Under the pieces are notes generated by a model. It was not told the origin of the DNA. It made no database searches and saw only the letters and a program-made list of their open reading frames with translations. From contig PMHV01000070.1 in assembly GCA_003156805.1 (NCBI GenBank), positions 1 through 32,820 of the forward strand: 32,820 nt of DNA, in the 5' to 3' direction. Positions 14,762 through 28,788 of this stretch are shown one piece after another. The position numbers and the translations under genes were made by a program. Position 1 is the first letter of the stretch. Every line of letters starts with the position of its first letter. The DNA is from Acidobacteriaceae bacterium. GTDB taxonomy: Bacteria; Acidobacteriota; Terriglobia; Terriglobales; Acidobacteriaceae.

Positions 14762-14809
14762 AATTGCCCAATTACAAAATTGCCAAATTACACAATTACT
14801 CAATTGCCT
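14762..14809. repeat. Octamer tandem array AATT-N-C-N-N x6 at the pcrA stop codon
   Basis: Six contiguous 8-mers: AATTGCCC, AATTACAA, AATTGCCA, AATTACAC, AATTACTC, AATTGCCT. The array is strikingly AT-rich for this genome and touches the pcrA stop codon (on the minus strand it begins at the last base of TGA). Confidence 0.8.
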
Positions 14810-17586
14810 CAGGCCCGCTCCAGTTGGGCATACTTCTCCACCAGCTTCTTCAAGCCGAAGCGAGGAAATTGTACAGTAATCTTGGCTTCTTCGCCTTCTC
14901 CTTCGCGCTGGTACACCGTGCCTTCGCCATATTTCGGATGTTTCACTCTTTGGCCCGGGCGGAAGCCGCGCTTGCCAGTGGGCTCTTCGACGGGCGTTTT
15001 GGGGAGAGTAAATTTCTTGCCGCGGCTGGCAAAGAACTCGGCAATGTTCTCAATGGAGTTGTAGGGCTTGGCTGGAACCGTTGGTTTTCCGGCGCGACCG
15101 CCGTATTGGTTTCGGCCGCTCTCGCGGCCTCGCCACGCTGCGCTCTGGTCTTCGTCTTCGTAGGAATAGTGCGTGGAAGTGTGATCGTTGCTGAGCGACT
15201 GAGCGGGCGAGCCTGCCCTGTGCAACGTCGAAGCGTCGCCCGCGCCAACACGGCCAGTGCCTGCACGAGACATGCTGCCACATCTGCCCAACTCCTCGAT
15301 GAGCTGCATCGGCACTTCTTCCAAAAATCTTGAAGGCACGCTGGCTTCGGGCAGGTCGGTGCCGTATCTTCGGCGGTAAACTGCACGGGTGAGGATGAGC
15401 TGGTCCATGGCGCGGGTCATGCCAACGTAGCAGAGGCGGCGCTCTTCCTCGATGTCGTCGGGCTGCAGCATGGTGCGCGAATGCGGGAAGAGACCTTCTT
15501 CGAGCCCACTGAGAAAGACCAGCGGAAACTCGAGGCCCTTGGCCGCGTGCAGGCTCATGAGCGTGATTTGCGCGCGCTCGTCGTAGTCGTCGGCGTCGGC
15601 GATGAGCGCGGCATGGTCGAGGAACTGGTCGAGAGTTTCGGCGCGGTCGCGCGAGTCGGCGGCAGCATTGACCAGTTCGCGAAGGTTCTCGATGCGGGAG
15701 AAAGCTTCCGGCGTGTCCTCGGCCTCGAGCAGCTTGATGTATCCCGTGCGGTCGATGAGGAATTTCAGCAGGTCGGCGGTGCTGACCGTGGGGATGGGGA
15801 ATGAATCTGCGGCAGATGCCTGCATCCCGGTATCAGGCGCGCCATTGGGTCGCTCTTCTTCCTGAACGATGGCCGGCAAGACGCTGTCGCTTATGTCTGC
15901 AGGGCTTTCATTTCCGGTGTAGGCTCCACCGAAATCGAAGGCTGTGTTTTCAAATTCAGTGGGGTCGAAGGCTGCTGCATCTTCGGTGTTCTCGTTGGTC
16001 GGGTACGTCTCGTTGGCAGGCGCGGGCGAGCCTGACCTGAGCAAAGCCGAAGAGTCGCCCGCGCCCACACTTTCTCTTCCCGCGCTTTCTTCCAGTTGCT
16101 CGGCAAACGTTCCCGCCTGCAGCGCCCGCGCGTCTTCGATCAACTGCTGAAAATTCTTGAGCGCTGACAACGCGCGCTGTGGCAAGAGTTGGCGGCGGAT
16201 CGCTTCTCCGATCGCTCCCCACAATGACAGGCCGGTTTCCAGCGCGAGGTGCTCAATGGTGTCAATGGTGCTCTTGCCGATGCCGCGGACCGGAGTGTTA
16301 ATCACGCGCAGCAGCGAAATCGTGTCATCGGGATTATGGATGACTTTGAGATACGAGATCATGTCTTTGATCTCGGAGCGCTCGTAGAAAGAAAATCCGC
16401 CGACCACTTTGTATTTGAGCCCGTAGCGCCGCATGGCTTCTTCAAACAGGCGCGACTGCGAGTTGGTGCGATAGAGCACGGCCGCGCGCGGAGTTCCGCC
16501 GCGTGCGTTTTCAGCACGACCGGCTTCGCGCAAATACTTCGCAATGTGATCGGCGGCAAAGAGCGCTTCGTTTTCGCCGTCCGGAGCTTCGTAGTAGCCG
16601 ATTTTGGTGCCGCCCTGGCGCGAGGTCCAGAGGTTCTTGCCTTTGCGGCGGATGTTGTTTGCAACTACTGCCGATGCGGCATGAAGAATATTCTGCGTGG
16701 AGCGGTAGTTCTGCTCGAGGCGGATAATCTTGGCTTCGGGAAAATCTTTTTCGAACTCCAGAATATTGCGAATGTCGGCGCCGCGCCACGAATAAATCGA
16801 CTGATCTTCGTCGCCGACGGCGCAGACGTTGTGGCGCTCGCCGGCCAACATCTGCATGAGTTCGTATTGCGGGCGGTTGGTGTCCTGGTATTCGTCGATC
16901 AGCAGATATCGAAAGCGGCGATTGTAATACTCGCGCACTGGCGCGGCCACCTTGAGCAAGCGCGTTGCTTCCAGCAGCAAATCGTCGAAATCGAGCGCGT
17001 TGGCCTTGCGCAGTTCCTTGCGGTATTCCTCGAACAGATGCGCGATCTTCTCGTTCTTGGGGTCGGCCGATTGCAGGTAAAGTTCCTGCGGATCGAGCAT
17101 GTGATTTTTCGCCCAGGAGATGCGCGAGAGCACGGTGCGCGGCGTGAGTTGTTTGTCGTCGACACCGAGGCGCTTCATGATCGACTTGACCACCGACTGC
17201 TGATCGCTTTCGTCGTAGATCACAAACTTCTTAGTATGGCCAATCGGTGGTTGACCGGGCGTGGCCGAAGGGATCTGCAGGGCTTCAATGTCGCGGCGCA
17301 GCACGCGCACGCAGAACGAATGAAACGTCGAGATGACCGGCTTGGCGATACTGAGTCCGCCGACAAGCTTCTCGACGCGCTCACCCATTTCCGCGGCGGC
17401 TTTGTTGGTGAAGGTCATCGCCAGAATGGATTCCGGCATCACGCCCATGTGCTCGATCAGGTAGGCGATGCGGTAGGTGATAACCCGCGTCTTGCCGCTG
17501 CCCGCGCCGGCGAGGATCAGCACTGGCCCCTCGGTCGTTTCGACGGCCTCGCGCTGCTGCGGGTTGAGTTGATCGAGAAAAGACAA
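14809..17586 (-). CDS. pcrA: UvrD/PcrA-type superfamily 1 DNA helicase
   Basis: ATP-driven 3'-5' DNA helicase for nucleotide-excision and mismatch repair and for removing RecA or stalled polymerases. All SF1A motifs are present: Q-motif LNPQQREAV, Walker A AGAGSGKT at 26-33, TFTNKAAAEM, Walker B LLIDEYQDTN, VGDEDQSIYSWRGAD, LEQNYRST, LMSLHAAKGLEFPLVFLSGL and EERRLCYVGMTRA. The C-terminus carries the Tudor-like RNA-polymerase-binding module (KHPKYGEGTVYQ). At 925 residues it is about 180 longer than usual. The excess lies in two variable linkers, one of about 100 residues in the 2B domain and one before the C-terminal module. Each linker contains one copy of the palindromic element described separately (VGAGDSSALLRSGSPA and VGAGDASTLHRAGSPA). 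Confidence 0.97.
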   Translation of the reverse strand: MSFLDQLNPQQREAVETTEGPVLILAGAGSGKTRVITYRIAYLIEHMGVMPESILAMTFTNKAAAEMGERVEKLVGGLSIAKPVISTFHSFCVRVLRRDIEALQIPSATPGQPPIGHTKKFVIYDESDQQSVVKSIMKRLGVDDKQLTPRTVLSRISWAKNHMLDPQELYLQSADPKNEKIAHLFEEYRKELRKANALDFDDLLLEATRLLKVAAPVREYYNRRFRYLLIDEYQDTNRPQYELMQMLAGERHNVCAVGDEDQSIYSWRGADIRNILEFEKDFPEAKIIRLEQNYRSTQNILHAASAVVANNIRRKGKNLWTSRQGGTKIGYYEAPDGENEALFAADHIAKYLREAGRAENARGGTPRAAVLYRTNSQSRLFEEAMRRYGLKYKVVGGFSFYERSEIKDMISYLKVIHNPDDTISLLRVINTPVRGIGKSTIDTIEHLALETGLSLWGAIGEAIRRQLLPQRALSALKNFQQLIEDARALQAGTFAEQLEESAGRESVGAGDSSALLRSGSPAPANETYPTNENTEDAAAFDPTEFENTAFDFGGAYTGNESPADISDSVLPAIVQEEERPNGAPDTGMQASAADSFPIPTVSTADLLKFLIDRTGYIKLLEAEDTPEAFSRIENLRELVNAAADSRDRAETLDQFLDHAALIADADDYDERAQITLMSLHAAKGLEFPLVFLSGLEEGLFPHSRTMLQPDDIEEERRLCYVGMTRAMDQLILTRAVYRRRYGTDLPEASVPSRFLEEVPMQLIEELGRCGSMSRAGTGRVGAGDASTLHRAGSPAQSLSNDHTSTHYSYEDEDQSAAWRGRESGRNQYGGRAGKPTVPAKPYNSIENIAEFFASRGKKFTLPKTPVEEPTGKRGFRPGQRVKHPKYGEGTVYQREGEGEEAKITVQFPRFGLKKLVEKYAQLERA
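15203..15251 (-). repeat. In-frame palindromic element, copy A, in pcrA
   Basis: A 49-bp unit with perfect 8-bp inverted ends GCGGGCGA and TCGCCCGC. It matches copy B at 43 of 49 positions. On the coding strand it encodes VGAGDASTLHRAGSPA near residue 779, in the linker before the C-terminal module, and it is open in all three frames of that strand. Confidence 0.8.
16022..16070 (-). repeat. In-frame palindromic element, copy B, in pcrA
   Basis: Second 49-bp unit with the same perfect ends GCGGGCGA and TCGCCCGC. It encodes VGAGDSSALLRSGSPA near residue 506, in the enlarged 2B-domain linker, and is read in the same frame as copy A. All three coding-strand frames are open, while one frame on the other strand has a stop. 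Confidence 0.8.
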
Positions 17587-24845: not shown

Positions 24846-24880
24846 GCTGACGGCTGAGAGCTGACGGCTGACAGCTGACG
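24846..24880. repeat. Heptamer tandem array GCTGA-N-R x5 after nadC
   Basis: Five contiguous units: GCTGACG, GCTGAGA, GCTGACG, GCTGACA, GCTGACG. The array begins 5 bases downstream of the nadC stop codon (minus strand) and fills about half of the 68-base gap before birA. The same unit occurs in five copies after the receiver-domain gene. Confidence 0.85.
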
Positions 24881-24885
24881 GCGGT

Positions 24886-25764
24886 TTATGCCGGCACAAC
24901 CCGCAGGCTCATATCGACGGCTTGCGGCGAGTGGGTCAGCACCCCTACCGAGATGAAATCAACGCCGGTCTCCGCGTACTCGCGAACATTTTCCAGCCGG
25001 ATTCCGCCCGAGCACTCCAGTGGAATACGCGGCTCGAGTTTCGCGCAACGCTCGACTGCGCGGCGCACGTCTTCCGGCGTCATGTTGTCCAGAAGAATCG
25101 CCTCCGCACCGCCCGCCAGTGCCTGCTCCAGTTCGTCCATGGTGCGCACTTCCACTTCGATTGGCTGTGACCCGCGCCGGTTGCGATGTGCGCGCTCCAG
25201 CGCGGGCGCGACGCCGCCCGCCAGCGTGAGGTGATTGTTCTTGATGAGTACGCCGTCGGAAAGATCGAGCCGGTGATTCTGGCCGCCTCCGCAGCGCACC
25301 GCGTACTTGTCGATCACACGCAGCCCCGGCGCCGTCTTCCGCGTATCGAGAATGCGCGCCTTGGTACCGGAGACAACGTCCACGAACTTCCGGGTCAAGG
25401 TAGCAATACCGCTCATCCGCTGCACAAAATTGAGCATCACGCGCTCGCAGGAAAGTATCACCCGCGCATTATGCCTGATCACCGCTACAGATTGCCCTTT
25501 GTGCAGCCGCACGCCGTCGAAAATCTCTGGATGCGTGGTGACTTCATAGTGCGAGGTCACGGCGCCGTCCAGCGCTGCATAAACGTCAAAGATGCGGCCC
25601 ACACAGCCGATACCGGCGAGAATGCAGTCTTGCTTGGCAAGAATAGTGGCCGCAGCCTGCTGATTGGCGTCCACGCAGGCGTAACTGGTGGCATCGCGCG
25701 TAGCCCGGTCTTCGAGCAGCGCGTTCTCCAGGATGGCGGTGATGCGGCGTGAATTCCAATCCAT
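24886..25764 (-). CDS. nadC: Quinolinate phosphoribosyltransferase (nicotinate-nucleotide pyrophosphorylase)
   Basis: Converts quinolinate and PRPP to nicotinate mononucleotide in de novo NAD synthesis. The 292 residues are full length. Key text: ALLEDRATRDATSYACV near the N-terminus, CERVMLNFVQRMSGIATLTR, ILDTRKTAPGLRVIDKYAVR, CGGGQNHRLDLSDGVLIKNNH (binding site Arg, His and Lys residues), IEVEVRTMDELEQAL, ILLDNMTPEDVRRAV, and ECSGGIRLENVREYAETGVD. It lies 40 bases downstream of valS and 68 upstream of birA, in the same direction. nadA and nadB are not in the window. Confidence 0.97.
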   Translation of the reverse strand: MDWNSRRITAILENALLEDRATRDATSYACVDANQQAAATILAKQDCILAGIGCVGRIFDVYAALDGAVTSHYEVTTHPEIFDGVRLHKGQSVAVIRHNARVILSCERVMLNFVQRMSGIATLTRKFVDVVSGTKARILDTRKTAPGLRVIDKYAVRCGGGQNHRLDLSDGVLIKNNHLTLAGGVAPALERAHRNRRGSQPIEVEVRTMDELEQALAGGAEAILLDNMTPEDVRRAVERCAKLEPRIPLECSGGIRLENVREYAETGVDFISVGVLTHSPQAVDMSLRVVPA

Positions 25765-25774
25765 GTTCGTGTAG

Positions 25775-25795
25775 GGCGGGCGTCCCTCGCCCGCC
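25775..25795. other. GC-rich palindrome between valS and nadC
   Basis: GGCGGGCG and CGCCCGCC form a perfect 8-bp stem with a 5-base loop (TCCCT), in the 39-base gap between two co-directional genes. Its arms resemble the ends of the 49-bp element in pcrA (GCGGGCGA and TCGCCCGC). Confidence 0.6.
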
Positions 25796-25803
25796 TGCAG
25801 TTT

Positions 25804-28696: not shown

Positions 28697-28745
28697 ACCA
28701 GTAACAGCATTAAGGTCATCCTAGGGACCGAAGATTCTACCGAGA

Positions 28746-28780
28746 GCTGATAGCTGACGGCTGATAGCTGAGGGCTGAGA
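28746..28780. repeat. Heptamer tandem array GCTGA-N-R x5 after the receiver gene
   Basis: Five contiguous units: GCTGATA, GCTGACG, GCTGATA, GCTGAGG, GCTGAGA. The array begins 8 bases downstream of the stop codon of the receiver-domain gene (minus strand). It has the same unit, copy number and orientation as the array after nadC. Confidence 0.85.
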
Positions 28781-28788
28781 GCCGCTCT

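Follow-up and report, generated by a model that had tools for sequence, protein, structure and literature searches.

The window analyzed here, the whole stretch of 32,820 nucleotides from an Acidobacteriaceae bacterium (contig PMHV01000070.1), carries a pcrA/uvrD-type helicase gene in whose linkers two similar 49-bp palindromic blocks are located. Our analysis indicates that these blocks are most probably nested repeats, namely hairpins of the repetitive extragenic palindromic (REP) type each with a 24-bp unit in its loop, and that this unit has also entered other REP hairpins. The dispersal of the unit, its presence or absence between species, its near-constant length and its in-frame state in three genes were observed directly. 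The first layer consists of REP-type hairpins with GTGG-like heads, lodged in two tolerant pcrA linkers. The second layer, shown by its presence or absence between species, is a unit of 24-25 bp, CTTCGRCNN(N)GCTCAGGGCAGGCTC, that occupies both hairpin loops. This unit is also present in REP hairpins of an ABC exporter gene and of thiE and at many other sites, the gene status of which is mostly unannotated.

An initial annotation, made from the letters of the window, had interpreted the 49-bp block as a palindrome that, if mobile, would modify proteins. Much of this idea stands, since the repeat is dispersed, shows presence and absence as if mobile, and adds peptides in frame. However, what moves is not the whole 49-bp block: the composite is found in pcrA alone, the inner core is found at many places, and congeners carry the hairpin without the core.

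Repeat layers in pcrA and across genomes

Repeats were counted in the genome from which the window derives (the source genome, a draft of 75 contigs that is 95% complete) and in other genomes, with the reversed pattern as control; below, G numbers denote genomes compared and L numbers extracted loci. Allowing up to three mismatches, the 41-bp composite was found at two places in the source genome, both in pcrA, while the inner 22-bp core was found at 34 places (control, 0), so that copies outside pcrA exist for the inner core alone. The 16-base centre of the core was matched exactly at 43 places, and at 95 with one mismatch (17 for the control). The pattern TTCGRCN{2,3}GCTCAGGRCAGG occurred at 52 places in the source genome and in 40 of the 45 genomes of the genus (source genome included), the control giving no match in all 45; the remaining five genomes were without any core match. 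In a sample of the phylum, CTTCGRCNNNGCTCAGGRCAGG was present in 22 of 297 genomes (control, 0). Among contigs classed as viral in IMG/VR, at least 120 stretches contained the core, compared with one for the reversed pattern, whereas phage records gave no match with a 32-mer containing the core. The same 32-mer matched one plasmid record (21 bases, E 0.06) and, at E 0.1, no E. coli record. The core is not general in cultured collections.

In 42 copies from the source genome, the CCC before the centre was nearly fixed (39, 39 and 40 of 42), as was the GCAGGC after it (36 to 41 of 42 per base), and conservation dropped outside. Since the core is dispersed and its conservation falls off at both ends, the inner part is an independent dispersed unit. 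Within the unit, 221 of 346 copies show pairing between the base triplet ahead of TTCG and the triplet that follows GCTCA; most of the copies came from searches with part of the motif fixed. The pairs seen were CCC/GGG (165), TCC/GGA (32), GGC/GCC (8), TGG/CCA (5) and others. Full pairing was found in 56 of the 181 copies that do not have CCC/GGG, compared with a mean of 31.4 and a maximum of 45 in 1000 shuffles. The unit looks like a small stem-loop, with a covarying 3-bp stem, a fixed inner loop and a fixed 3' tail. Tandem core copies with a 25-bp period were seen on the minus strand of L012 (source genome, about 1450-1546), and a core copy in L016 (source genome), located towards the end of an open frame of 373 residues, may have truncated a gene.

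A related 20-mer was found in complete plasmids of cultured strains, for example of Sphingobium (22 records, E 0.1-0.4). The plasmid loci L430-L437, from cultured Proteobacteria (Sphingomonas, Sphingobium, Novosphingobium, Polaromonas, Comamonas and Variovorax), carry a sister repeat that shares the inner loop and in most cases has the tail GAACGG; in L431-L437 one copy lies on each strand, close together. A 30-mer with the CGACAAGCTCAG form matched 70 phage records, 68 of them Pseudomonas phages, at one place each, and was set aside as one shared chance match.

The outer part of each pcrA block is a short REP-type hairpin, GCGGGCGA…TCGCCCGC, with a GTGG-like head, and it was found empty in congeners. 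In the source genome, the empty 18-nt hairpin GCGGGCGCCCTCGCCCGC is present at eight sites, and four hairpins of 41-42 nt contain the core, all of them in genes (two in pcrA, one in thiE and one in the ABC exporter gene). With these eight exact empty and four filled copies, the pcrA-type stem is repeated many times as is typical of REPs, and the empty stem-loops of 17-18 nt plus head agree with the 20-40 nt of a REP palindrome. A loose hairpin pattern gave 28 sites compared with 18 for the reversed control, so that part of the 28 is due to chance. GTAG is the tag of an intergenic hairpin of the window, and the heads in pcrA are merely GTGG-like (Table 1). This intergenic palindrome (25775-25795) had been proposed as a possible minimal relative of the blocks; it is real and tagged, and is best read as an empty hairpin with the same stem type. 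Its 25-mer, starting at 25771, had no second copy in the source genome at up to three mismatches. The hairpin GGGACGGGCG..CGCCCGTCC from the pcrA linkers of congeners was also considered, and was rejected with just two places in the source genome. Across the genus, the pcrA linkers of congeners (L036-L065) contain many different hairpin repeats, for example GGGGACGGGCGCCCTCGCCCGTCC and GCGGGGCGAAGCCCCGC, as if these linkers were landing pads. In the ABC exporter of the source genome (L149), a second REP-like peptide, VGTGASPVQ, lies in the middle linker and varies across the genus.

What the initial annotation had reported about the two blocks themselves was borne out, with one refinement. The copies share 43 of 49 bases; when pcrA was shuffled 40 times with its dinucleotides preserved, no 49-mer match exceeded 34. 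Both have perfect 8-bp inverted ends and lie in one pcrA frame, read as VGAGDASTLHRAGSPA and VGAGDSSALLRSGSPA, and all three frames of the coding strand are open in both. On the opposite strand, three of three frames are open at 15203-15251 and one of three at 16022-16070. The refinement is that the palindrome proper accounts for 41 bp, the remaining 8 of the 49 bp being the head side of the hairpin. Folded as a single strand, the 57 nt at 16014-16070 were better than shuffled sequences (z -3.1, 2 of 200 as good), while the 57 nt at 15195-15251 were no better (z -0.3, 66 of 200 as good). A pcrA match of some kind was obtained in all 61 genomes searched (source genome included), some of them not full length. 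The PcrA structure 1pjr aligns to residues 4-490, 601-780 and, weakly, 874-924, and both blocks fall in the two gaps, confirming that the linkers are enlarged relative to PcrA of known structure. The site 1 block lies inside the 110-residue stretch 490-601, where 1pjr has two residues, and the site 2 block inside the stretch 780-874, ahead of the C-terminal domain, the 1pjr match of which is weak. An acidobacterial host, as suggested earlier, is very probable, the best named PcrA relatives being Acidobacteriota such as Candidatus Sulfotelmatobacter. The window also contains two short arrays of a 14-bp repeat, GCTGACGGCTGANA, at 24846-24889 and 28739-28782.

Table 1. Coordinates of pcrA, its two repeat sites and the intergenic hairpin in the window
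Feature	Position	Strand	Basis
pcrA/uvrD-type helicase gene, 925 codons, two expanded linkers	14809..17586	-	open reading frame; PDB match PcrA 1pjr, E 9e-181
Site 1: hairpin, GTGTGGG head, arms 16022-16029 and 16055-16062 (11 bp with outer bases), read VGAGD..GSPA	16022..16070	-	inverted arms and fold; empty counterparts in congeners
Site 1 insert: 24-bp unit in hairpin loop, CTCTTCGGCTTTGCTCAGGTCAGG on coding strand, read SSALLRSG	16031..16054	-	genome-wide core match
Site 2: hairpin, GTGTTGG head, arms 15203-15210 and 15236-15243, read VGAGD..GSPA	15203..15251	-	inverted arms; empty counterparts in congeners
Site 2 insert: 24-bp unit in hairpin loop, CGCTTCGACGTTGCACAGGGCAGG, read ASTLHRAG	15212..15235	-	congener comparison; flank spacing 26 vs 2 in L043
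Intergenic hairpin without core, GTAG-tagged: GTAG GGCGGGCG TCCCT CGCCCGCC	25771..25795	+	fold of 25766-25800, z -4.4

Filled and empty sites in relatives

At site 2, PcrA of the congener G036 (L037) reads RVGAGDSPA, compared with RVGAGD[ASTLHRAG]SPA in the source genome, and the gene has the exact empty hairpin GCGGGCGACTCGCCCGC there; mutated relatives of this empty hairpin are present in L043 and L052. At site 1, the protein alignment gives HVGAGDSPA for G036 (L037), and the exact empty hairpin, of 17 nt, was found in G017 (L046). The length of the site 1 insert was obtained as the difference between the 41-nt filled and the 17-nt empty hairpins rather than from aligned flanks. The alignment of PcrA orthologues, proposed in the initial annotation as a check, thus revealed the hairpin without the core at both sites in congeners, and the aligned orthologues lack both peptides as such. 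The presence of two similar peptides in one gene might suggest local duplication, within pcrA, of an ancient conserved linker peptide. Given that congener hairpins lack the eight residues, and that the core is found at 34 to 52 places of the source genome depending on the pattern, this explanation is highly improbable, and it is refuted by the dispersed copies.

The two other genes show the same alternation. The eight residues are present at the C-terminus of the ABC exporter in four of 29 rows (L280, an incomplete row, was omitted), one of the filled rows (L291) being decayed with four mismatches, and in ThiE in four of 30 rows. In rows with both flanks aligned to the site, the spacing was 25-26 in filled and 1-2 in empty loci, equivalent to a 24-bp insert for 21- and 22-base cores alike. 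This value was obtained for nine ABC rows, for thiE in L240 and others, for pcrA site 2 in L043, and for L046, L048 and L051 compared with L050, the pcrA of G012, which carries the core in reverse orientation. A spacing of 25 between L256 and L249 was discarded, as the flanks align poorly. Three pairs outside the aligned genes (L046, L248 at 2300, and L024), taken as non-coding without annotation, gave 25 bp, although for L046 two further alignments yielded 26 and 25-26 bp. The difference between 24 bp (eight codons) at coding sites and 25-26 bp at these apparently non-coding ones could be explained by selection for the reading frame after insertion. In a comparison of G004 with G017 over 31.6 kb at 88-96% identity, one of 18 indels of at least 9 bases was the core (26 bases). 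The ThiE insert lies in a short connection, between stretches that align to residues 80-113 (weakly) and 118-205 of thiamin phosphate synthase 1g4t.

Filled and empty states, assigned by eye from the ABC and orthologue alignments, were also placed on gene trees. On the ABC tree, built from the gene without the linker, the filled state needs four changes for four filled rows, at least three of them forced by starred branches, and filled rows were no more clustered than with shuffled labels. The thiE tree needs four changes, of which at least two are forced. The core at the ABC site is 22 bases long in the source genome and in G025 but 21 in G002, and in thiE of G018 (L264) it begins one base further on than in the source gene and is read in another frame; these differences in length and offset favour separate gains. 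In pcrA of other Acidobacteriota (L099, L103 and L050), cores were seen in linkers at other places, frames and strands, read as SPFDYAQGR, PSTSLRAG and PALSGVEGA.

An artefact of metagenome assembly or of adapters might be considered, because the source genome is a draft and the titles of all 80 named PcrA relatives mark them as metagenome-assembled genomes. However, in three genes the copies have mutated but keep the frame and the length of 24 bp, and filled rows come from different projects, as traced through identical pcrA loci (SRVP, palsa, BP and JOPF). Together with the five core-free genomes of the genus and the related 20-mer in complete plasmids of cultured strains, these data make an artefact the least credible of the explanations considered.

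Hairpin sites and routes of spread

The association of the unit with hairpins was assessed in 83 copies from core-only searches; 13 of them have, no more than 5 bases from the unit, a perfect stem with a minimum length of 7 bp. After shuffling of the flanks the mean number was 0.33 (maximum 3 in 500), and after permutation it was 1.2 (maximum 5 in 200). The loci for this count comprised 50 from the source genome, 28 from the phylum and 30 from the genus, the underlying genus search having found a total of 1,116 places. Copies that contain N, lie close to the end of a locus or deviate from the exact core pattern were excluded, and neither pcrA copy remains after this filtering. Likewise, L200 and the thiE orthologues were excluded since they came from a hairpin-primed search; an earlier set of 95 copies still included them. 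With an earlier, looser hairpin score, seven of 29 copies in other genomes were positive, compared with 2.2% of permuted pairs. A tag stands just outside the stem in eight of the 13 host hairpins (GTGG in five and GTAG in three), to the left of the core in L149, L209, L215, L228 and L231 and to the right in L173, L180 and L181, that is, in both orientations.

These data bear on the possibility that hairpin and core move or are copied together as one palindromic element of 41-49 bp. The members of the pcrA pair are alike in hairpin subtype, in insert boundary and at 43 of 49 bases, and together with the hairpins of the CGCGGGCG type (L149, L200 and L248) they hold the core in one orientation, as one element would. 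However, the composite is found in pcrA alone and congener hairpins are empty at both pcrA sites, which largely refutes such an element for pcrA; elsewhere the core lies in stems of differing sequence, in both orientations to the tag, and also without a hairpin. We therefore regard this explanation as unlikely.

Several observations weigh against nested insertion into REP hairpins. Using the earlier score, only two of 39 copies in the source genome reached a net score of at least 7, compared with 2.7% of permuted pairs, and thus showed no excess, and just one of 30 source-genome copies in the 83-copy set reaches a 7-bp stem. The 90 copies from 80 loci, drawn from the at least 120 viral stretches, gave three hairpins (shuffle mean 0.24, maximum 3), and one insert sits in a stem arm and not in the loop (L024 compared with L159). 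Many other aligned rows show different spacings, linkers varying in length for other reasons. Gene conversion between the two pcrA copies may account for their shared hairpin subtype and insert boundary, and repeated loss instead of gain may have produced the filled and empty sites, the trees not separating the two. The relatedness of copies and the bias of the search pattern weaken the covariation test of the stem, and the shuffle tests take no account of kinship among copies. Finally, no enzyme or intermediate was found for the core, and no transposase could be tied to it.

The core was also found in tandem copies, in other repeats and between plain flanks. That it is confined to hairpin loops was considered and dropped, there being no excess in the source genome in the first test and little in viral copies. 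Loops are thus at most one preferred kind of site.

For the nested-repeat reading, the most likely route of spread would be copying through single-stranded DNA at hairpins exposed during replication. A trans-acting factor would probably do the copying, and REP hairpins would be one type of landing site. The added peptides would probably be near-neutral extra linker sequence. Alternatively, no dedicated mobile unit may be needed, if forks that stall on hairpins take up a stretch from another copy of the repeat by template switching or microhomology repair. This alternative, which we consider possible but clearly the weaker, overlaps with the nested-repeat reading, the difference being the mover. 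Junction microhomology (CTTCGG at L046 and CCTTCG at L248), the tandem copies at L012 and the excess of hairpin sites speak in its favour, but the insert ends are constant within a base or two at unrelated sites, and the insertions in thiE, the ABC gene and L024 have no comparable junction homology as judged by eye. More speculatively, a structured unit of 24-25 bp (3-bp covarying stem, TTCGRC-NN(N)-GCTCA loop and CAGGC/GAACG tail) might spread across bacterial phyla by recognising single-stranded hairpins, preferably REP loops, also those within conserved genes, and might there repeatedly write 8-residue peptides at the same spot in different lineages.

At E values of up to 0.001, the source genome has two Y1_Tnp genes that resemble those of REP-associated tyrosine transposases (RAYTs), L034:1306-1962 and L035:1432-1926. 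On both sides of L035 lie inverted, GGTGG-tagged hairpins with a different stem (CGCAGCGCT), in a REPtron-like arrangement. L034 is flanked by CCCACCCGTG hairpins, one of which is interrupted by the core. It was considered whether the core is L034's own end; this was rejected, as the core interrupts one of the two flanking hairpins and a source-genome paralogue of that flank, L159, is without it. A cognate RAYT flanked by the pcrA-type REP was not found among the two Y1_Tnp genes of this 95%-complete genome. According to PMC8266576, single-stranded REP is processed in vitro by TnpAREP of E. coli, and enzymes of this kind are therefore candidates for acting on the REP layer.

Comparison with known repeat systems

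Genomes of several Acidobacteriota families carry the unit, as do contigs classed as viral, and the proteins that receive it are altered in frame. The occurrence of both filled and empty orthologues for pcrA, thiE and the ABC exporter gene offers a natural experiment on how such a short unit moves and on a possible attraction to REP hairpins. The unit would also account for peptides such as PSTSLRAG or PALSEVEG, which recur widely in predicted proteins and were here seen just in frames over core copies. To our knowledge, the unit, if mobile as a unit, would be among the smallest mobile DNAs. No description of a 24-bp unit in REP hairpins of conserved Acidobacteriota genes was found in the literature searched, and matches to core strings of 12-14 letters were unrelated by title.

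Miniature inverted-repeat transposable elements are defined by their own terminal inverted repeats and by target-site duplication. Such terminal repeats are absent here: the long arms belong to the host hairpin, which is empty in relatives, and the unit has a 3-bp inner stem. In the few filled/empty pairs no consistent target-site duplication was seen, a CTTCGG repeat being present at one junction. PARCELs (palindromic amphipathic repeat coding elements), according to PMC2996958, are palindromic coding repeats with a patchy distribution across bacteria and are thought to be mobile; they have a 25-residue motif and occur in tandem in open reading frames of no assigned function. The present repeat resembles them as a palindromic coding repeat of patchy distribution thought to be mobile, but differs in that single inserts of eight residues lie in conserved genes.

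In passages of PMC1525189, the insertion sequences IS1397, IS621 and ISKpn1 are described as targeting REPs as specific insertion sites. The use of REPs as targets of mobile DNA is thus shared, but those are full insertion sequences, in contrast to 24-25 bp without room for a gene. Rickettsia palindromic elements (RPEs) are, in passages of PMC3733652, palindromic repeats that lie in frame in conserved proteins, with a CGTC tag for RPE-4 and RPE-6. The parallel with these elements drawn in the initial annotation holds in effect, namely in the in-frame peptides; no link in sequence was seen, and by eye no CGTC tag lies directly beside the pcrA hairpins, the RPE sequences themselves not having been compared. 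A further difference is that the pcrA case has two nested layers.

Intragenic REPs are also known from passages of PMC3733652, which include a UvrD/REP helicase among REP-decorated proteins as well as genes hit twice. The outer hairpins resemble GTAG-type REPs in being short palindromes, some of them with a GTAG or GTGG tag, that also occur within genes. In contrast, the REP does not include the inner 24-bp unit, which is found away from hairpins as well.

The cyanobacterial small dispersed repeats (SDRs) of Elhai et al. 2008 reportedly have a unit size of 21-27 nt. In cyanobacteria, SDR5 inserts at a fixed position inside the repeat HIP1, according to passages of PMC4390886, and small dispersed repeats are also cited in passages of PMC3116915 and PMC2884548. 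The likeness is one of arrangement, namely a dispersed unit of about 24 bp with constant ends inside other repeats, here REP hairpins in three genes and other hairpins, with tandem arrangement also possible. The present unit differs from SDRs in its host phylum, in having a REP hairpin as host repeat, and in adding in-frame peptides to conserved genes.

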